DNA from: Roseimicrobium gellanilyticum
GTDB taxonomy: Bacteria > Verrucomicrobiota > Verrucomicrobiia > Verrucomicrobiales > Verrucomicrobiaceae
NCBI RefSeq assembly: GCF_003315205.1
Contig: NZ_QNRR01000014.1
Span: forward strand, 1-64,000
Direction of reading: 5' to 3'
DNA length: 64,000 nt
Shown here: positions 36,910 to 42,024 of the stretch, in pieces
How positions within the stretch are numbered: position 1 is the stretch's first letter
Layout of the letters: the number at the start of each line of letters is the position of its first letter
Program-made: the position numbers and the translations under genes
The notes under the pieces: generated by a model
What the model was told of the DNA's origin: nothing
What the model saw: the letters and a program-made list of their open reading frames with translations, nothing else
Database searches by the model: none

Positions 36910-36994
36910 CGCACCCCGCATGCCTCTCAGCGGATGGCGAATGTGCGGCCTGCGGTTGCCCATTCCCACATCCTGCGCCACGCTGCACGCCCGC

Positions 36995-37891
36995 ATGGCT
37001 TCCCCGCGCAGTTTCCGTCTTGAAATGCTCCAGGTAGCGCGGCTCGCGCCCAAGTTGCTGGGGGAGTCCGCGTCGCTGGTGGAGAAGTTCCTTCTTTCGC
37101 AAGTGACAGCAGAAGGCGGGTTCGCAGATCGGCAGGGGAAACCGGACCTGTATTACACGGTGTTTGGTCTCGAGTCTTTGCTCGCCCTCCGGATTGAGGC
37201 ACCCAAGGCAACGGTGTCTGCCTATCTGCGCAGTTTTGGCGCAGGTGAGGGACTGGATTTTGTCCACGCATGCTCCCTGGCGCGGTGTCATGCAAACCTC
37301 GGTGGAGATTTCATTTCCGACGAGCAGAAGCACCGGCTGGCAGATCTCATCGAGACGTACCGCACATCGGAAGGCGGTTACCATGGCACACCGGGCAAAG
37401 CCGCTGGCTCAGCCTATGGTGGCCTGCTCGCATGGGGCGCCTACAATGATCTGGGACTTCCCATGCCGCAGGAAGATCGCTTGGGGGAAGCGCTCGCAGC
37501 GCTGGCGCTTCCCGATGGCTCCTTTGCCAACGAGCCCGGCATGCGTGAAGGTACCACCACCACTACCGCCGCCGCAGTCACGCTCGCACGGCACCTTTCC
37601 TTCCCCCTGCCTTCAGGAACCGGCGACTGGATTTTGAAGCAACTGCATCCCAGCGGCGGCTTTCTCGCGACTCCACGAGCCCCTCTCCCGGACCTGCTCA
37701 GCACCGCTACCGCCCTCCATGCGCTGGACGGCCTGCAGATCCCATTCGGACACGTTCGCGAACTCTGCCTCGACTTTGTCGACAGCCTCTGGACTGCCGA
37801 AGGAGGATTCTACGGCCATTGGGCAGACGATCACCTCGATGCCGAATACACCAGCTATGGACTGCTGGCGTTGGGTCACTTGGGTTCGTAG
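36995..37891 (+). CDS. Prenyltransferase/squalene-oxidase repeat protein
   Basis: A 298-residue protein made of repeats of the prenyltransferase beta-subunit type: AEGGFADRQGKPDLYYTVFGL, SEGGYHGTPGKAAGSAYGGLLA, DGSFANEP and AEGGFYGHWADDHLDAEYTSYG. The fold is the alpha-alpha barrel of geranylgeranyl transferase beta subunits and terpene cyclases. The metal ligands of the true transferases are only partly visible, so the activity is uncertain. Bacterial homologues occur in Planctomycetes and Verrucomicrobia without known substrates. The start at 36995 avoids a non-matching N-terminus. An AT-rich gap with its own promoter separates it from the next gene. Confidence 0.78.
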   Translation: MASPRSFRLEMLQVARLAPKLLGESASLVEKFLLSQVTAEGGFADRQGKPDLYYTVFGLESLLALRIEAPKATVSAYLRSFGAGEGLDFVHACSLARCHANLGGDFISDEQKHRLADLIETYRTSEGGYHGTPGKAAGSAYGGLLAWGAYNDLGLPMPQEDRLGEALAALALPDGSFANEPGMREGTTTTTAAAVTLARHLSFPLPSGTGDWILKQLHPSGGFLATPRAPLPDLLSTATALHALDGLQIPFGHVRELCLDFVDSLWTAEGGFYGHWADDHLDAEYTSYGLLALGHLGS

Positions 37892-38083: not shown

Positions 38084-41000
38084 ATGGCATTCTCCATTCG
38101 CAGTTTCTTCGGCAAAGAAAAAGGGGCGGACCCCTTGGCCCCGGGGTCGTCAGCAAATCAAGGCAGCGTTCTTCCTCCCCTGGGTGCCAACCCGTTCCAG
38201 TCCGCATCCAATAATCCCTTCGCTGCCAACGCCGCACATCAGGCAGGGGATTCCACATCCGCTCCCATGAACTCTCCCTTCACTCCCTTCACCCCTGCTG
38301 ATTCGGGACGGACTGAACTGACCGTGGGAGACATCCTCCCCGGGCTGCCGCTTGAGGCTCTCAACAACCGGCAGGTCGCTCTGAACCAGCCGCTGCACCT
38401 CGCGGATGAAATCGTGGAGAGAGCCCTCTCCAGTGGACAACCCGCGATCCCTCTTTTCGAGATCTACCGCGTTTGTCCTGCCCTGTTTCCGGCGCCGATT
38501 TCACCGGAGGACAATCGCACCGTTCCCATCCCTCCGCATAAGATTGCCGGACTGATCCCGAAGAGTGGTCCCGCAGGTGCACCGGGGGCGGGAACTTCTC
38601 CGTTTGCCATCGCGCCTCCTGGATCAGCCCCCGGGTTCGCGGGCGGACCTGCAAGCAACAGCATTTTCTCCCCTTTCGTCCAAGCGGAGCACCCAACGGA
38701 GGACACTGAGTCTTCGACCACTCTTTTTCATCCCTCTCCGTTCAATTTTGGCGCCCCAACCCAGGGACCAAAACCGGAACAAGGTCCCGCAGCCTCACCC
38801 TTCGGTGTTGCCGGTGGAGGCCCCGAGGCCGGTCCGGGAGCGCTTGCTCCCGGCATGCCCAATCCTTTCGCTCCGACCTCAGCTGCCTCATTCGCCTCCA
38901 TGGCCTTCGGCAGCCCTGCGCCAGCACCCGCTCCTGTAGGAATCCCTCCACAGGCTCCCTTGGGACCAGGAGCATCCAGCCCGTTTTCTTTCGGCTCGCC
39001 CAACCCTCCTCCTACGACGCCCACGCCGCAACTTCCGGCACCAGCTCCAGAGCCAGGTCCGGGCGCTCAGTCCTCGCCATTCGCCTCCGCCCTTCCAGAC
39101 CCGGCGAAACAAGCGCCAGCGCCGTTTGATTTCGCCAGCCCGACCCGGCCCACTGTCAGCGCTCCCGAGAACGTTTCTCCCTTCACACCTGCAAGCCCGC
39201 CCCCATCCCCTGCTCCTGCATCCCATCAGCAATCGAACCCCCTTTGGTCGGGTGGCGCTCCCTTCGCGCCCACACCGGCAGCAGCCCCTTCCCCAATTCC
39301 GCTTCCGCCAGCGGTGAATTCGCCGTTTGGCCCAGCGGCTCCAGCGGAGCCCGCTCCATTTGTCCCCCCAACACCATCCCAAATGGGGCCTGCGACTGGA
39401 AACGCCGGCGCACCCTCATGGATGTCAACACCCACCAAACCTGGCATAGGTGCCAGCCCGTTTGCAGGTTTCGCCGTGCCACCACCGGCCCAACCGACTC
39501 CTCTGGCCTCTCTCCCGCCAGAGCACGGTACAACGCTCGACATTCCAGCGTCTGCCGAATCCCAACTTCCCACGGCCTCTGCTCCCCCTGCGATGGTGCC
39601 GATGGCACCAGCCCCTTCCAGCCCAGCTGCCGGGATGCCTGCCTTCCCTGGATTCGCCCTGTCGCCATCTGAGGGCAATCCAGCCAACACTCCATTCCAG
39701 CCAGGTCCGGGATCCGCGAATTTCGCTCCTCCCGGCGAGCCGTCCCTTCCGCCATTGCAGCCCGGTCCTTTCTCCCCCGCACCGGAGTTGTTCCGCCCGG
39801 CCCAGCCGCCGCCTGCGGCAATGAACCCTTTCGAGCGCATCCAGGCTCTCAGCCGCACCGAGGGGTCCCCTTCGGCCCCGGTAGAAGAACGCGCCATGGA
39901 GCCAGCCCCCACCCCCGCTGCAGAAACTCCTGCGCCCATCGCGTCGCCTGCTGTGGCACCTCCCACACCCGCGCCCCAAGCACCCCAAGCACCCCCGAGC
40001 GTGTCTGCACCTGCTCTTGGTCCGATTTCCAGTTCCGTCTTTGCACCAGCGCCGGAACTGCGACCGATGCCGCATCTTCACGCCGCGGTCCACGGACCTG
40101 CGGAGAAGGTGAGCCTGAGCCTCGCCTCTGTACTGAAAGGCTGCAAGACCCACGAAATCGGCATGAGCCCGGACCACATTCCCTCCTGGGTGCGTGTGAA
40201 CCTGCCGCTCGATCTCATCCGTCCCCAGCTTCTCAGCGGGAAAGTCACCCTGCGCGTGACGCAGGTCATGGCCGCCCTCGATCCGGAGCTGCGCAACCTG
40301 ATCACGCCTTGCCGGCAAGATCTTTCGGTGGATCTGCCGATGGGTGAGCTGCGCAAAGCACTCCCCAACGAGCCCTTCCCCGAGCCGAGCGCCAGCGCTC
40401 CCGCTCCGGCAGCCGCAGCGCCAATTTTCCAGCCTTTCTCACCTTCTCCCTCAAACGCAGGGAATGCGAATACCCCGGACTTTGTCTTCGGTACGCCCAC
40501 CAATCCGCCGCCGGTTCCTCCCTTTTTCCAAGTCCCGCCCCCCGCAGAAGCTCCCCAGCCTGCCGCCACACACAGCTCCTGGCCTTTGCCTCCCGGCTCG
40601 CCGGATCCGGAACCCGCGTCCGTCGTGGAATCGGCAGAGCTTGCCTCAGCCTTCTCCTTCCTGAAGGAAGAGCCAGAAATGGAAGCCGCCGTTCCTGAGA
40701 GGGATGTGGTCGTCGACTTCAAGCCAGTGGCTGCAGAGAGTCCGCCTGCCGTCAAGACACCGGAACCCGTCTCCACCCCAGCGCGCACCATTGCGCCGAC
40801 AGCCGCCGAGCCGCCGCACGGCATAACCAAATCTGCCATCCGCGTGATCCCGCCCACACCTGCCAATCAAAGCGCCAGCCAGATGCTGCTGCGCGCGCTG
40901 CTCAACACCGACGAACCGCTGGACACAGCTTCAGTGGCACAACTTCTGGCCTGCCAGCCCGGCATTGTCGCGGTGGCCTGCCTGCGAGATGGAACCTGCC

Positions 41001-41278
41001 TCGCTTCTGCAGGCAATGGCAGCGCGGAAGCCGAACACTTCCTCAATCAGGCGCCGAAGCTGCATCACCACGTGCAGCCGCTCATCCAGCTCACGGGCTC
41101 GCTCGACACCGAGACCTTCAGCATGAACAGCGGCGCGCTGGTCATCACCTTCTCGCTGCAGAGCGAGATCACCTTGGGCGTGCTGCACGATCCGCGCACA
41201 CAAGGCCCTGCCCTCCGCGAACGCATCACCTTGATCGCTCGCTCCCTCACTCCGCTCCTGAATCTCCCGGCTGCCTAA
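38084..41278 (+). CDS. Giant NPF/FG-rich disordered protein with Roadblock/LC7 (MglB-like) domain
   Basis: A 1064-residue protein with four parts. The short N-terminus is followed by an ordered module (residues about 77-159). Next comes a stretch of about 500 residues that is mostly Pro, Ala, Gly, Ser and Phe, with around twenty NPF, SPF or APF motifs and several FG dipeptides (SPFNFG, SPFSFG). A second module (about 676-760) resembles the first. The last 137 residues form a Roadblock/LC7 domain (LACQPGIVAVACLRDGTCLAS; LVITFSLQSEITLGVLHD). MglB is a Roadblock protein that activates the GTPase MglA to set cell polarity, and an MglA-like gene follows 32 bp downstream. The long linker is unlike known MglB proteins. 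Translation from 38084 fits a promoter just upstream. Confidence 0.85.
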   Translation: MAFSIRSFFGKEKGADPLAPGSSANQGSVLPPLGANPFQSASNNPFAANAAHQAGDSTSAPMNSPFTPFTPADSGRTELTVGDILPGLPLEALNNRQVALNQPLHLADEIVERALSSGQPAIPLFEIYRVCPALFPAPISPEDNRTVPIPPHKIAGLIPKSGPAGAPGAGTSPFAIAPPGSAPGFAGGPASNSIFSPFVQAEHPTEDTESSTTLFHPSPFNFGAPTQGPKPEQGPAASPFGVAGGGPEAGPGALAPGMPNPFAPTSAASFASMAFGSPAPAPAPVGIPPQAPLGPGASSPFSFGSPNPPPTTPTPQLPAPAPEPGPGAQSSPFASALPDPAKQAPAPFDFASPTRPTVSAPENVSPFTPASPPPSPAPASHQQSNPLWSGGAPFAPTPAAAPSPIPLPPAVNSPFGPAAPAEPAPFVPPTPSQMGPATGNAGAPSWMSTPTKPGIGASPFAGFAVPPPAQPTPLASLPPEHGTTLDIPASAESQLPTASAPPAMVPMAPAPSSPAAGMPAFPGFALSPSEGNPANTPFQPGPGSANFAPPGEPSLPPLQPGPFSPAPELFRPAQPPPAAMNPFERIQALSRTEGSPSAPVEERAMEPAPTPAAETPAPIASPAVAPPTPAPQAPQAPPSVSAPALGPISSSVFAPAPELRPMPHLHAAVHGPAEKVSLSLASVLKGCKTHEIGMSPDHIPSWVRVNLPLDLIRPQLLSGKVTLRVTQVMAALDPELRNLITPCRQDLSVDLPMGELRKALPNEPFPEPSASAPAPAAAAPIFQPFSPSPSNAGNANTPDFVFGTPTNPPPVPPFFQVPPPAEAPQPAATHSSWPLPPGSPDPEPASVVESAELASAFSFLKEEPEMEAAVPERDVVVDFKPVAAESPPAVKTPEPVSTPARTIAPTAAEPPHGITKSAIRVIPPTPANQSASQMLLRALLNTDEPLDTASVAQLLACQPGIVAVACLRDGTCLASAGNGSAEAEHFLNQAPKLHHHVQPLIQLTGSLDTETFSMNSGALVITFSLQSEITLGVLHDPRTQGPALRERITLIARSLTPLLNLPAA

Positions 41279-41310
41279 CCCCCCCGCTGGATCGCGATCC
41301 GCGCACGCTC

Positions 41311-42024
41311 ATGGCCGTCATTCACGAAGACCGGCGCACGGTCAGTTTCAAAATTGTCTATTGTGGCACGCCCATCGGCGGAAAGACCACAAACCTCCAG
41401 CACATTCACAAGTGCCTGGACCCCGCCTCACGTGGGGAACTGGTGAGCCTGTCCACCGCGGCGGATCGTACACTCTTCTTCGACTTCCTTGCGGTGGAGG
41501 CGCCCATCATGAATGGATACACCGCGAAGTTCCAGCTCTACACGGTGCCCGGTCAGGTGGTGTACAATGCCACCTACCAGCTCGTCATGCGCCAGGCCGA
41601 TGGCCTTGTGTTCGTCGCCGATTCCCAGCTCGATCGCATGGCGGACAACCTGAAGTCCTGGGAGATCTTCCACGCGAACCTGCGTGGCAACGAGCAATCA
41701 CTCGACCGGATCCCGCTCGTACTGCAGTACAACAAGCGGGATCTTCCGAACGCCGCTCCCGTAGAGTACCTGGACTACCTGCTGAACAACGGCCAGCGCC
41801 GACACTACAGCTTCGAAGCGAATGCCGCCCGCGGCCACAACGTGCTCTCCACGCTCAATGCCATCTCCCATGAGGTGCTCACCCGGTTCTCCCAGTGCAT
41901 GACAGAGAACACGTATGAAGGCGAGCAACAACAACAGCAACAGCCCGTGGCCGCGGAGCAGGTCTCCAATGGGCCGGACAGCTACATGGCCCGCAGGCAG
42001 GCGACGCTGGCGAGAAGGTATTGA
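41311..42024 (+). CDS. MglA-like Ras-family GTPase
   Basis: A 237-residue small GTPase. The P-loop is GTPIGGKTTN, followed by NLQHIHKCLD, as in MglA of gliding and twitching bacteria. The switch-II region reads LYTVPGQVVYNATYQLVMRQADG, and the guanine-specificity motif is QYNKRDLP. The C-terminus has a Gln-run (residues about 208-213) and a basic end that are not found in typical MglA proteins. Its neighbour's Roadblock domain is the expected GTPase-activating or localising partner. Together they probably set polarity or organise surface machines such as pili, but no motility genes are present in the window. Confidence 0.9.
   Translation: MAVIHEDRRTVSFKIVYCGTPIGGKTTNLQHIHKCLDPASRGELVSLSTAADRTLFFDFLAVEAPIMNGYTAKFQLYTVPGQVVYNATYQLVMRQADGLVFVADSQLDRMADNLKSWEIFHANLRGNEQSLDRIPLVLQYNKRDLPNAAPVEYLDYLLNNGQRRHYSFEANAARGHNVLSTLNAISHEVLTRFSQCMTENTYEGEQQQQQQPVAAEQVSNGPDSYMARRQATLARRY

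Follow-up and report, generated by a model that had tools for sequence, protein, structure and literature searches.

A long Roadblock protein with repeated U domains is paired with an MglA-family GTPase in Verrucomicrobiota

Introduction

What kind of partner is a 1064-residue protein encoded directly ahead of an MglA-type GTPase, and what might the two do together? Most of what is known about MglA modules comes from Myxococcus, Thermus and Bdellovibrio, and to our knowledge polarity and surface motility have hardly been studied in Verrucomicrobiota. The locus that raises the question lies in Roseimicrobium gellanilyticum, contig NZ_QNRR01000014.1 (GCF_003315205.1), of which positions 1-64,000 of the forward strand were analysed and are here called the window. 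An initial annotation of this DNA reported a 1064-residue open reading frame (ORF) followed 32 bp later by an MglA-type GTPase, and read the pair as MglBA-like with a long linker in the Roadblock protein. Both ORFs exist as claimed, with that 32-bp gap. What they represent is a variant of the MglA module in which the partner, a scaffold by our reading, carries a repeated domain, U, and a Roadblock domain of a non-MglB class; its mechanism we infer. The annotation knew of no described bacterial system of such form, and the long architecture was likewise not found in the passages searched of the literature on MglA, Roadblock proteins and Verrucomicrobia, a body of text that leaves subscription journals mostly outside.

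The GTPase and its long partner recur across the order

Against PDB sequences, the window GTPase matches MglA at an E-value of 8e-48 (phmmer). It has the P-loop GxxxxGK[TS] (G19-x4-G24 K25 T26), an intrinsic arginine beside the G2 threonine (R53-T54), TVPGQ at G3 (78-82) and NKRD at G4 (141-144), and across 21 GTPase sequences T54 is invariant and R53 is present in at least 90%. An arginine beside the G2 threonine, TVPGQ and NKxD are the marks of Group 1 MglA proteins (Wuichet & Sogaard-Andersen 2014, PMC4316618), and by its sequence the window GTPase belongs to the MglA family with a Group 1-type active site. In the passages of that survey that bear on the phylum, Verrucomicrobia are placed in Group 5 and do not figure in the lineages named for Group 1 (PMC4316618).

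Within the order Verrucomicrobiales, sampled as 189 genomes from 43 genera, the GTPase was found in 104 genomes and 27 genera, none of the 104 belonging to the family here labelled f2, in which genomes of the largest genus measure 2-3.5 Mb. Forty GTPase regions of the order were fetched. An ORF script placed the GTPase in the window and in 37 of these regions; in the other three (L036, L045, L067) the GTPase ORF missed one script criterion, and these were covered by a domain-profile scan instead. In all 38 placed loci an ORF on the same strand ends just upstream of the GTPase. This ORF is 312-1230 residues long in 37 of the 38, the last (L058) being cut by a contig end, and the profile scan gave a match to RB1, the Roadblock class of the long protein described below, beside the GTPase in 40 of 40 regions. 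The pairing claimed for the window is therefore no assembly or annotation error, because it recurs across the order with long partners. No paralogue of either gene was found elsewhere in the window genome at the thresholds used.

When a GTPase alignment was used to query species genomes more widely, 578 stretches were confirmed, of which the best 80 were examined as named loci; for loci outside the order the taxon names were taken from record titles, some of them plainly wrong (L078 'Akkermansia', L098 'Prosthecobacter'). Among these best 80 of 578, a same-strand upstream ORF of at least 477 residues occurs in loci assigned by title or placement to Verrucomicrobiota, as well as in L086 and L087. 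In ten loci (seven Zixibacteria, BRC1, Zipacnadia and one Planctomycetota) MglA is flanked by a short Roadblock of 112-130 residues upstream and another of 161-201 residues downstream, and the remainder have an MglB-type gene upstream or no Roadblock match, a few cut or unusual loci apart.

The C-terminal Roadblock domain of the long protein is not of the MglB class

Neither Pfam nor NCBIfam gave the window protein a match up to E 1, and the Robl_LC7 model has no match in the window genome at E 0.001. Because the family scans gave no match, the Roadblock reading was tested through relatives and structure. The last 120 residues align with short Roadblock proteins encoded upstream of MglA in other lineages, and 20 of 30 aligned members match Robl_LC7 at E 0.1 or better (best 9e-15; the window's own sequence does not). 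Nine of the 30 are short outgroup Roadblocks, hence at least 11 of the 21 long-protein members match. The AlphaFold2 model of the domain (RB1) has a predicted local distance difference test score (pLDDT) of 91.3 and a predicted template modelling score (pTM) of 0.86. In Foldseek, Roadblock (3e-6) and MglB (1e-5) rank first, and in VIA the model aligns with an archaeal Roadblock at Z 14.9 and with Thermus MglB at Z 14.0, LAMTOR chains also being among the top matches and profilins, which have a related arrangement, appearing from about Z 11 down. The predicted fold is that of an MglB/LAMTOR-type Roadblock, and on this point homologues and model bear the initial annotation out.

The class of this Roadblock differs from what had been proposed. 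The RB1 profile is strongest against Asgard archaeal Roadblocks (E 2.3e-11) and weak against MglC (0.0024), LAMTOR2 (0.0008-0.0034) and MglB (0.0046), whereas the profile of RB2, a second Roadblock gene found 3' of the GTPase in relatives, matches MglB at E 8e-30 and MglC at 0.35. Because RB1 matches MglB weakly and RB2 strongly, the two are assigned, by profile, to a second, non-MglB class and to the MglB type, respectively; the profiles cross-match in places (for example, the L190 RB2 gene against RB1 at 2e-5), and the RB1 profile is broad (30 rows, most 13-40% identical to the window) and therefore less sensitive. The notion of an MglB with a long linker was not borne out, and orthology of the long protein with MglB was rejected on the same E-values. 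MglB is described as a single Robl_LC7 domain, 129-179 residues long in 58 of 63 first BLAST hits (PMC4316618); the window protein, with 1064 residues, U domains and linkers, departs from it in both size and architecture. MglC is a Roadblock paralogue of MglB (PMC7949163) and a binding partner of RomR and MglB; in relatives RB1 forms a second class beside an MglB-type gene, but its similarity to MglC is weak.

RB2 accompanies RB1 in 33 of the 40 order loci and is missing from L051-L056 and L061. A search of the window genome with the RB2 profile gave no convincing match (best E 0.13). Coupling of the GTPase to an MglB homologue within four genes holds by a broad Roadblock-family definition, through RB1, but not by the narrower MglB-type profile. 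Whole-genome searches of relatives gave no match in three genomes (G056, G004, G063) and only E 0.28 in G049; G021 has a fragment with a stop at E 0.005, and G162 matches clearly at E 4e-34. Because these searches gave no convincing match there, the window's clade has probably lost MglB, the alternative being divergence beyond recognition. Most order loci combine the GTPase with both Roadblock classes, whereas the window's clade apparently keeps a single class, and the order therefore offers a natural experiment on which Roadblock is the regulator of the switch.

RB2 genes have themselves been lengthened in places, to 398-555 residues in L049, L070 and L071, where they lie 3' of the GTPase; the extension in L049 is a low-complexity acidic tail. 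Because of these three genes, the MglB-type protein can be said to have also gained a long tail in some lineages.

A repeated domain links the long proteins within and beyond the order

The low-complexity stretch of the window protein is divided by two conserved copies of a domain of about 78 residues, overlooked earlier and here called U (Table 1); relatives have one to three copies. The two window copies are related by hhalign (probability 95.9, E 6e-9), a comparison of first-round profiles in a run whose domain matches rest on single seeds from the window. The iterated profile started from the two copies together and so does not prove their homology independently. It matches all 56 long proteins scanned, and the short L041 has two partial matches only. 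Searches of Pfam with U gave two single-member matches at E 0.02-0.04 among 38, none credible. The U model, of fair quality (Table 1), has no match in the PDB: Foldseek gave none at E 0.001, and re-aligning 30 chains yielded none at Z 2. Such a lack of matches does not establish that the fold is new. U is a clean target for structural work.

U and the GTPase travel together. Within the window genome the U and RB1 profiles match only the long-protein gene (up to E 1). Across a phylum sample of 387 genomes, with a threshold of E 1e-4 and at most 13 candidates scored per genome, U was found in 30, of which all but one (G490) are among the 40 genomes that bear the GTPase; this overlap of 29 compares with about 3 expected if the two were independent, kinship ignored. 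Of twenty further loci picked for a U match, 18 encode U together with RB1 in a single ORF (L200 has no RB1 match and L205 is cut). Seventeen such U loci hold the GTPase, and the U-RB1 gene is divergent from it in 15 and in line in two (L208, L209). Outside Verrucomicrobiota, U matches lie directly upstream of MglA in L087 (3669-5990, titled Methylomirabilota, whole-protein E 2.5e-9) and L107 (5012-5971, titled Hebobacteria, E 3e-15), both with hydrophobic N-terminal segments. On a GTPase tree made by a quick method (131 rows, seven near-duplicates dropped by hand, architecture labels hand-set from locus numbers) the U-RB1 label takes two changes, which does not decide for or against a single origin. 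Many Verrucomicrobiota possess an MglA that has Group 1 signatures and a putative scaffold family of its own.

Six of the Zixibacteria loci (L099, L104, L113, L116, L119, L125) encode, upstream of RB1, a protein with several hydrophobic segments and a variable linker, and several members show weak Roadblock matches at the C-terminus. It is possibly a third Roadblock, ahead of an RB1-MglA-RB2-PilB series. A U domain was looked for in it and none was found (hhalign probability 0.1). Because the U proteins of L087 and L107 and the Zixibacteria protein all have hydrophobic segments, their sequences suggest a membrane-anchored ancestor of the scaffold.

The linker is rich in SPF and NPF motifs

Outside the domains lie 792 of the 1064 residues, 60% of them proline, alanine, glycine or serine. 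The initial annotation's NPF/SPF/APF-rich linker is real: it holds 4 NPF, 10 SPF, 2 TPF and 3 APF motifs, and its 16 [NST]PF motifs compare with a mean of 2.2 in shuffled sequences and were reached by none of 300 shuffles, the number used for each protein. Their density is 20.2 per 1000 residues, against 0.38 in 55 other window ORFs picked mechanically. Among 43 order proteins the observed count was reached by at most 3 of 300 shuffles in 38, the exceptions being L032, L041, L044, L046 and L049; this set counts the same contigs twice in three cases (L056/L072, L060/L073, L037/L078) and includes two members assigned to the order by title and tree only (L076, L077). FG dipeptides fare differently. 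The linker has 7 against 3.5 expected, a marginal excess reached by 15 of 300 shuffles, and only 10 of the 43 members show an FG count reached by at most 3 of 300. The likeness to FG nucleoporins that had been seen in this region is accordingly weak, and that reading was rejected as the main feature.

The linkers evolve fast: comparing the window with L052, identity is 51% in the linkers and 85% in the domains. The motifs are held better than their surroundings: compared with like linker residues, conservation is 0.76 against 0.36 for the first residue, 0.83 against 0.63 for proline and 0.77 against 0.66 for phenylalanine, over 13 pairs of which some share a member and with a first-residue control that omits threonine. 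The [NS]PF code, specific to the order, offers a way to test docking through short motifs in a bacterial scaffold. At the N-terminus of the protein, a hydrophobic-basic peptide is similar across the order, and the pattern [FLW]x(0-1)[FILV][RKQN]x[LIMFVW][FLW], written post hoc from the sequences and without a shuffle control, occurs within the first 48 residues of 38 of the 43 members. An amphipathic N-terminal helix as a family trait was considered and rejected; at most 10 of 200 shuffles did as well in 22 of 73 proteins, just four of those from the order.

Table 1. Features of the window locus, with positions in the window
Feature	Position	Strand	Basis
Prenyltransferase alpha-alpha-toroid gene, upstream neighbour and at most a possible module member	36920-37891	+	PF00432, E 8.5e-13
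U-RB1 gene (putative scaffold), 1064 residues	38084-41278	+	ATG start; homologues in relatives
N-terminal peptide MAFSIRSFFGK (hydrophobic-basic)	38084-38116	+	Similar across the order
U domain copy 1 (residues 79-154)	38318-38545	+	Seed and iterated profile matches
Pro/Ala/Gly/Ser linker 1 with SPF/NPF motifs	38546-40114	+	Composition and shuffle test
U domain copy 2 (residues 678-756)	40115-40351	+	Profile matches; AlphaFold2 pLDDT 82.3, pTM 0.64
Linker 2	40352-40900	+	Composition and shuffle test
Roadblock domain, RB1 class (residues 940-1057)	40901-41254	+	Homologues, AlphaFold2, Foldseek, VIA
MglA-family small GTPase gene, 237 residues	41311-42024	+	ATG start; Group 1 signatures

Pilus and ExbB/ExbD genes neighbour the GTPase in relatives

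Gene neighbours were surveyed in 141 stretches (140 loci and the window) with flanks of varying length. In Zixibacteria, PilB lies behind the RB1-MglA-RB2 cassette in seven of seven loci, and PilT and PilC follow in the five that reach further. PilB is upstream in L079, L080, L081 and L208, with PilC also in L081; a PilT-family gene is downstream in L088, L092 and L094, and L192 has PilB and PilC. Matches in L065 (PilC, 29% identical) and L137 are weak. NCBIfam names agree for L079 (PilB), L088 (PilT family), L106 (PilB and PilT) and L081 (PilC/GspF-like), though not all are above curated cut-offs. A different machine is found within the order itself, where ExbB and ExbD lie 3' of the GTPase in 14 of 40 loci, as they do in L083; L208 has ExbB. 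A TonB-like gene, which has no Pfam match, is often next after ExbB/ExbD, and a FabF gene follows in several loci.

A scaffold model and its alternatives

On balance we lean towards the view that the long protein acts as a scaffold close to the membrane. By binding the MglA switch and positioning it, the scaffold would control a surface machine, with pili as the best-supported candidate. The pair would consist of a Ras-like MglA switch and a dedicated scaffold, in which RB1 would bind the GTPase, alone or through a Roadblock dimer, the N-terminus and the U domains would keep the complex near the cytoplasmic membrane, and the long linker could offer many SPF/NPF docking motifs. The module would in this way determine the place and time of action of the switch. 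Judged by the genes beside it in distant relatives, type IV pilus motor proteins are the best-supported target, and within the order itself the ExbB/ExbD proton channel is a second candidate. An analogy for the pilus is found in Myxococcus, where MglA and SgmX bring PilB to the leading pole (PMC11580455). RomY of Myxococcus stimulates MglB (PMC9481161). Because an MglB-type Roadblock gene is not recognised in the window genome, the RB1 protein may be the main regulator of the switch there, possibly as a GTPase-activating protein (GAP) or a guanine nucleotide exchange factor (GEF).

Several observations weigh against this scaffold model. The pilus link is patchy: 17 of the 141 stretches have pilus genes close to the GTPase, two of these weak; none lie near the pair in the window or in the numerous deltaproteobacterial loci surveyed, and the order loci L032-L078 have neither PilB nor PilT near the GTPase, the PilC match of L065 being the only one. 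Since all 189 order genomes have PilT-family genes, with or without the GTPase, co-occurrence of PilT is uninformative and was dropped as a test of the link. For membrane proximity, the window protein has no transmembrane segment, its sole hydrophobic window lying inside RB1, and an amphipathic helix at its N-terminus is unsupported, as 39 of 200 shuffles are as good. U itself is not seen in 11 of the 40 GTPase genomes under the phylum-wide threshold and candidate limit given above. Finally, [NST]PF motifs are enriched in none of 31 proteins from outside the order, and because of this the SPF/NPF motifs cannot be the core of the mechanism.

The same evidence bears on three other explanations. 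The pair might be a plain MglBA polarity module, in which the long protein is a lineage-specific MglB acting as GAP, the linker is decoration and the whole works as in Myxococcus. A Roadblock gene directly 5' of the GTPase with a 32-bp gap, a Roadblock fold with MglB among the top structural matches and the Group 1 signatures of the GTPase all favour such a module, but the RB1 profile is far from MglB where that of RB2 is close to it, and U is conserved far beyond the order. Moreover, RB1 is not simply a long MglB, because 33 of 40 order loci hold RB2 beside it, and we regard this explanation as unlikely. The module might instead govern an ExbB/ExbD/TonB-type proton-channel machine, serving the envelope or uptake and neither pili nor polarity. 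In favour of this, ExbB and ExbD, often with the TonB-like gene, come after the GTPase and RB2 in many order loci, and ExbB is also seen outside the order, in L083 and L208; the linked GTPases are about 38-68% identical to that of the window. Yet the arrangement covers only the 14 order loci and is not adjacent to the pair in the window or in the rest of its clade. In Zixibacteria and some Verrucomicrobiota the neighbours are pilus genes instead, and since FabF follows in several loci, the synteny may in part reflect an ancient gene order. This, too, seems improbable as the sole function.

The third explanation, raised in the initial annotation, makes the linker the active part, with SPF/NPF stickers driving phase separation into a polarity or surface hub. 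The motif count that no shuffle reached and the better conservation of motif residues than of like linker residues elsewhere speak for such a condensate. However, motif enrichment is confined to the order while the module extends beyond it, enrichment of FG is inconsistent, and conservation at single sites fits docking motifs at least equally well; we consider a condensate very unlikely. Building on the favoured scaffold model, a broader and decidedly tentative proposal is that Verrucomicrobiota have a widespread system for positioning the GTPase, made of U domains (a new family, possibly a new fold) and a non-MglB Roadblock and perhaps descended from a membrane-anchored ancestor. Verrucomicrobiales might then have gained a multivalent SPF/NPF docking code by which MglA recruits pili or ExbBD-type machines to one envelope site, with no recognisable MglB in the window's clade, and the system would be a counterpart of Ragulator in plan. 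We think it doubtful that all of this will hold.

Relation to known systems

The window system shares with MglA/MglB of Myxococcus xanthus and Thermus thermophilus an MglA-family GTPase with R53-T54, TVPGQ and NKRD, a Roadblock gene just upstream and, in distant relatives, pilus-gene neighbours. It differs in that its Roadblock protein is not MglB-type, has 1064 residues instead of about 160, and carries two U domains and a motif-rich linker, and in that no MglB-type gene is recognised in the window genome. The plan of a scaffold plus an extra Roadblock is shared with RomR and MglC of M. xanthus, with the window protein holding both in one chain, and RomR has a proline-rich linker. The C-terminal helix of RomR is reported to bind MglC (PMC12719032). 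Unlike RomR, the window protein has no receiver domain in Pfam and NCBIfam scans, and RB1 is no closer to MglC than to LAMTOR2 or MglB.

Ragulator (LAMTOR1-5), in which scaffold-held Roadblocks recruit Ras-like GTPases to the animal lysosome membrane (PMC5680233), offers another parallel, and the RB1 model aligns with a Ragulator chain at Z 14.2. The GTPases belong to another family, and the likeness is one of plan only. With FG nucleoporins the window protein has in common a low-complexity linker with short phenylalanine-containing motifs, which here are enriched in [NS]PF and not in FG.

Other neighbouring genes

A prenyltransferase-like gene lies upstream of the pair (Table 1). It is kept in place in 6 of 37 relatives (L052-L057), all in the window's own clade, or 7 of 38 with the window, and its sequence matches no solved structure at E 0.001. 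Since the two genes adjoin in those seven loci, lipid anchoring of the GTPase was considered; it was rejected, as the GTPase has no cysteine in its final 37 residues. The set of loci with the prenyltransferase gene is nearly that without an MglB-type gene, and L057 has both.

In nine Limisphaerales-type loci (L084, L085, L088, L089, L090, L092, L094, L095, L098), a response-regulator gene lies divergently, some 2-3 kb ahead of the GTPase; in L084, the locus checked, it carries DUF4388. This regulator is a possible input to the module.

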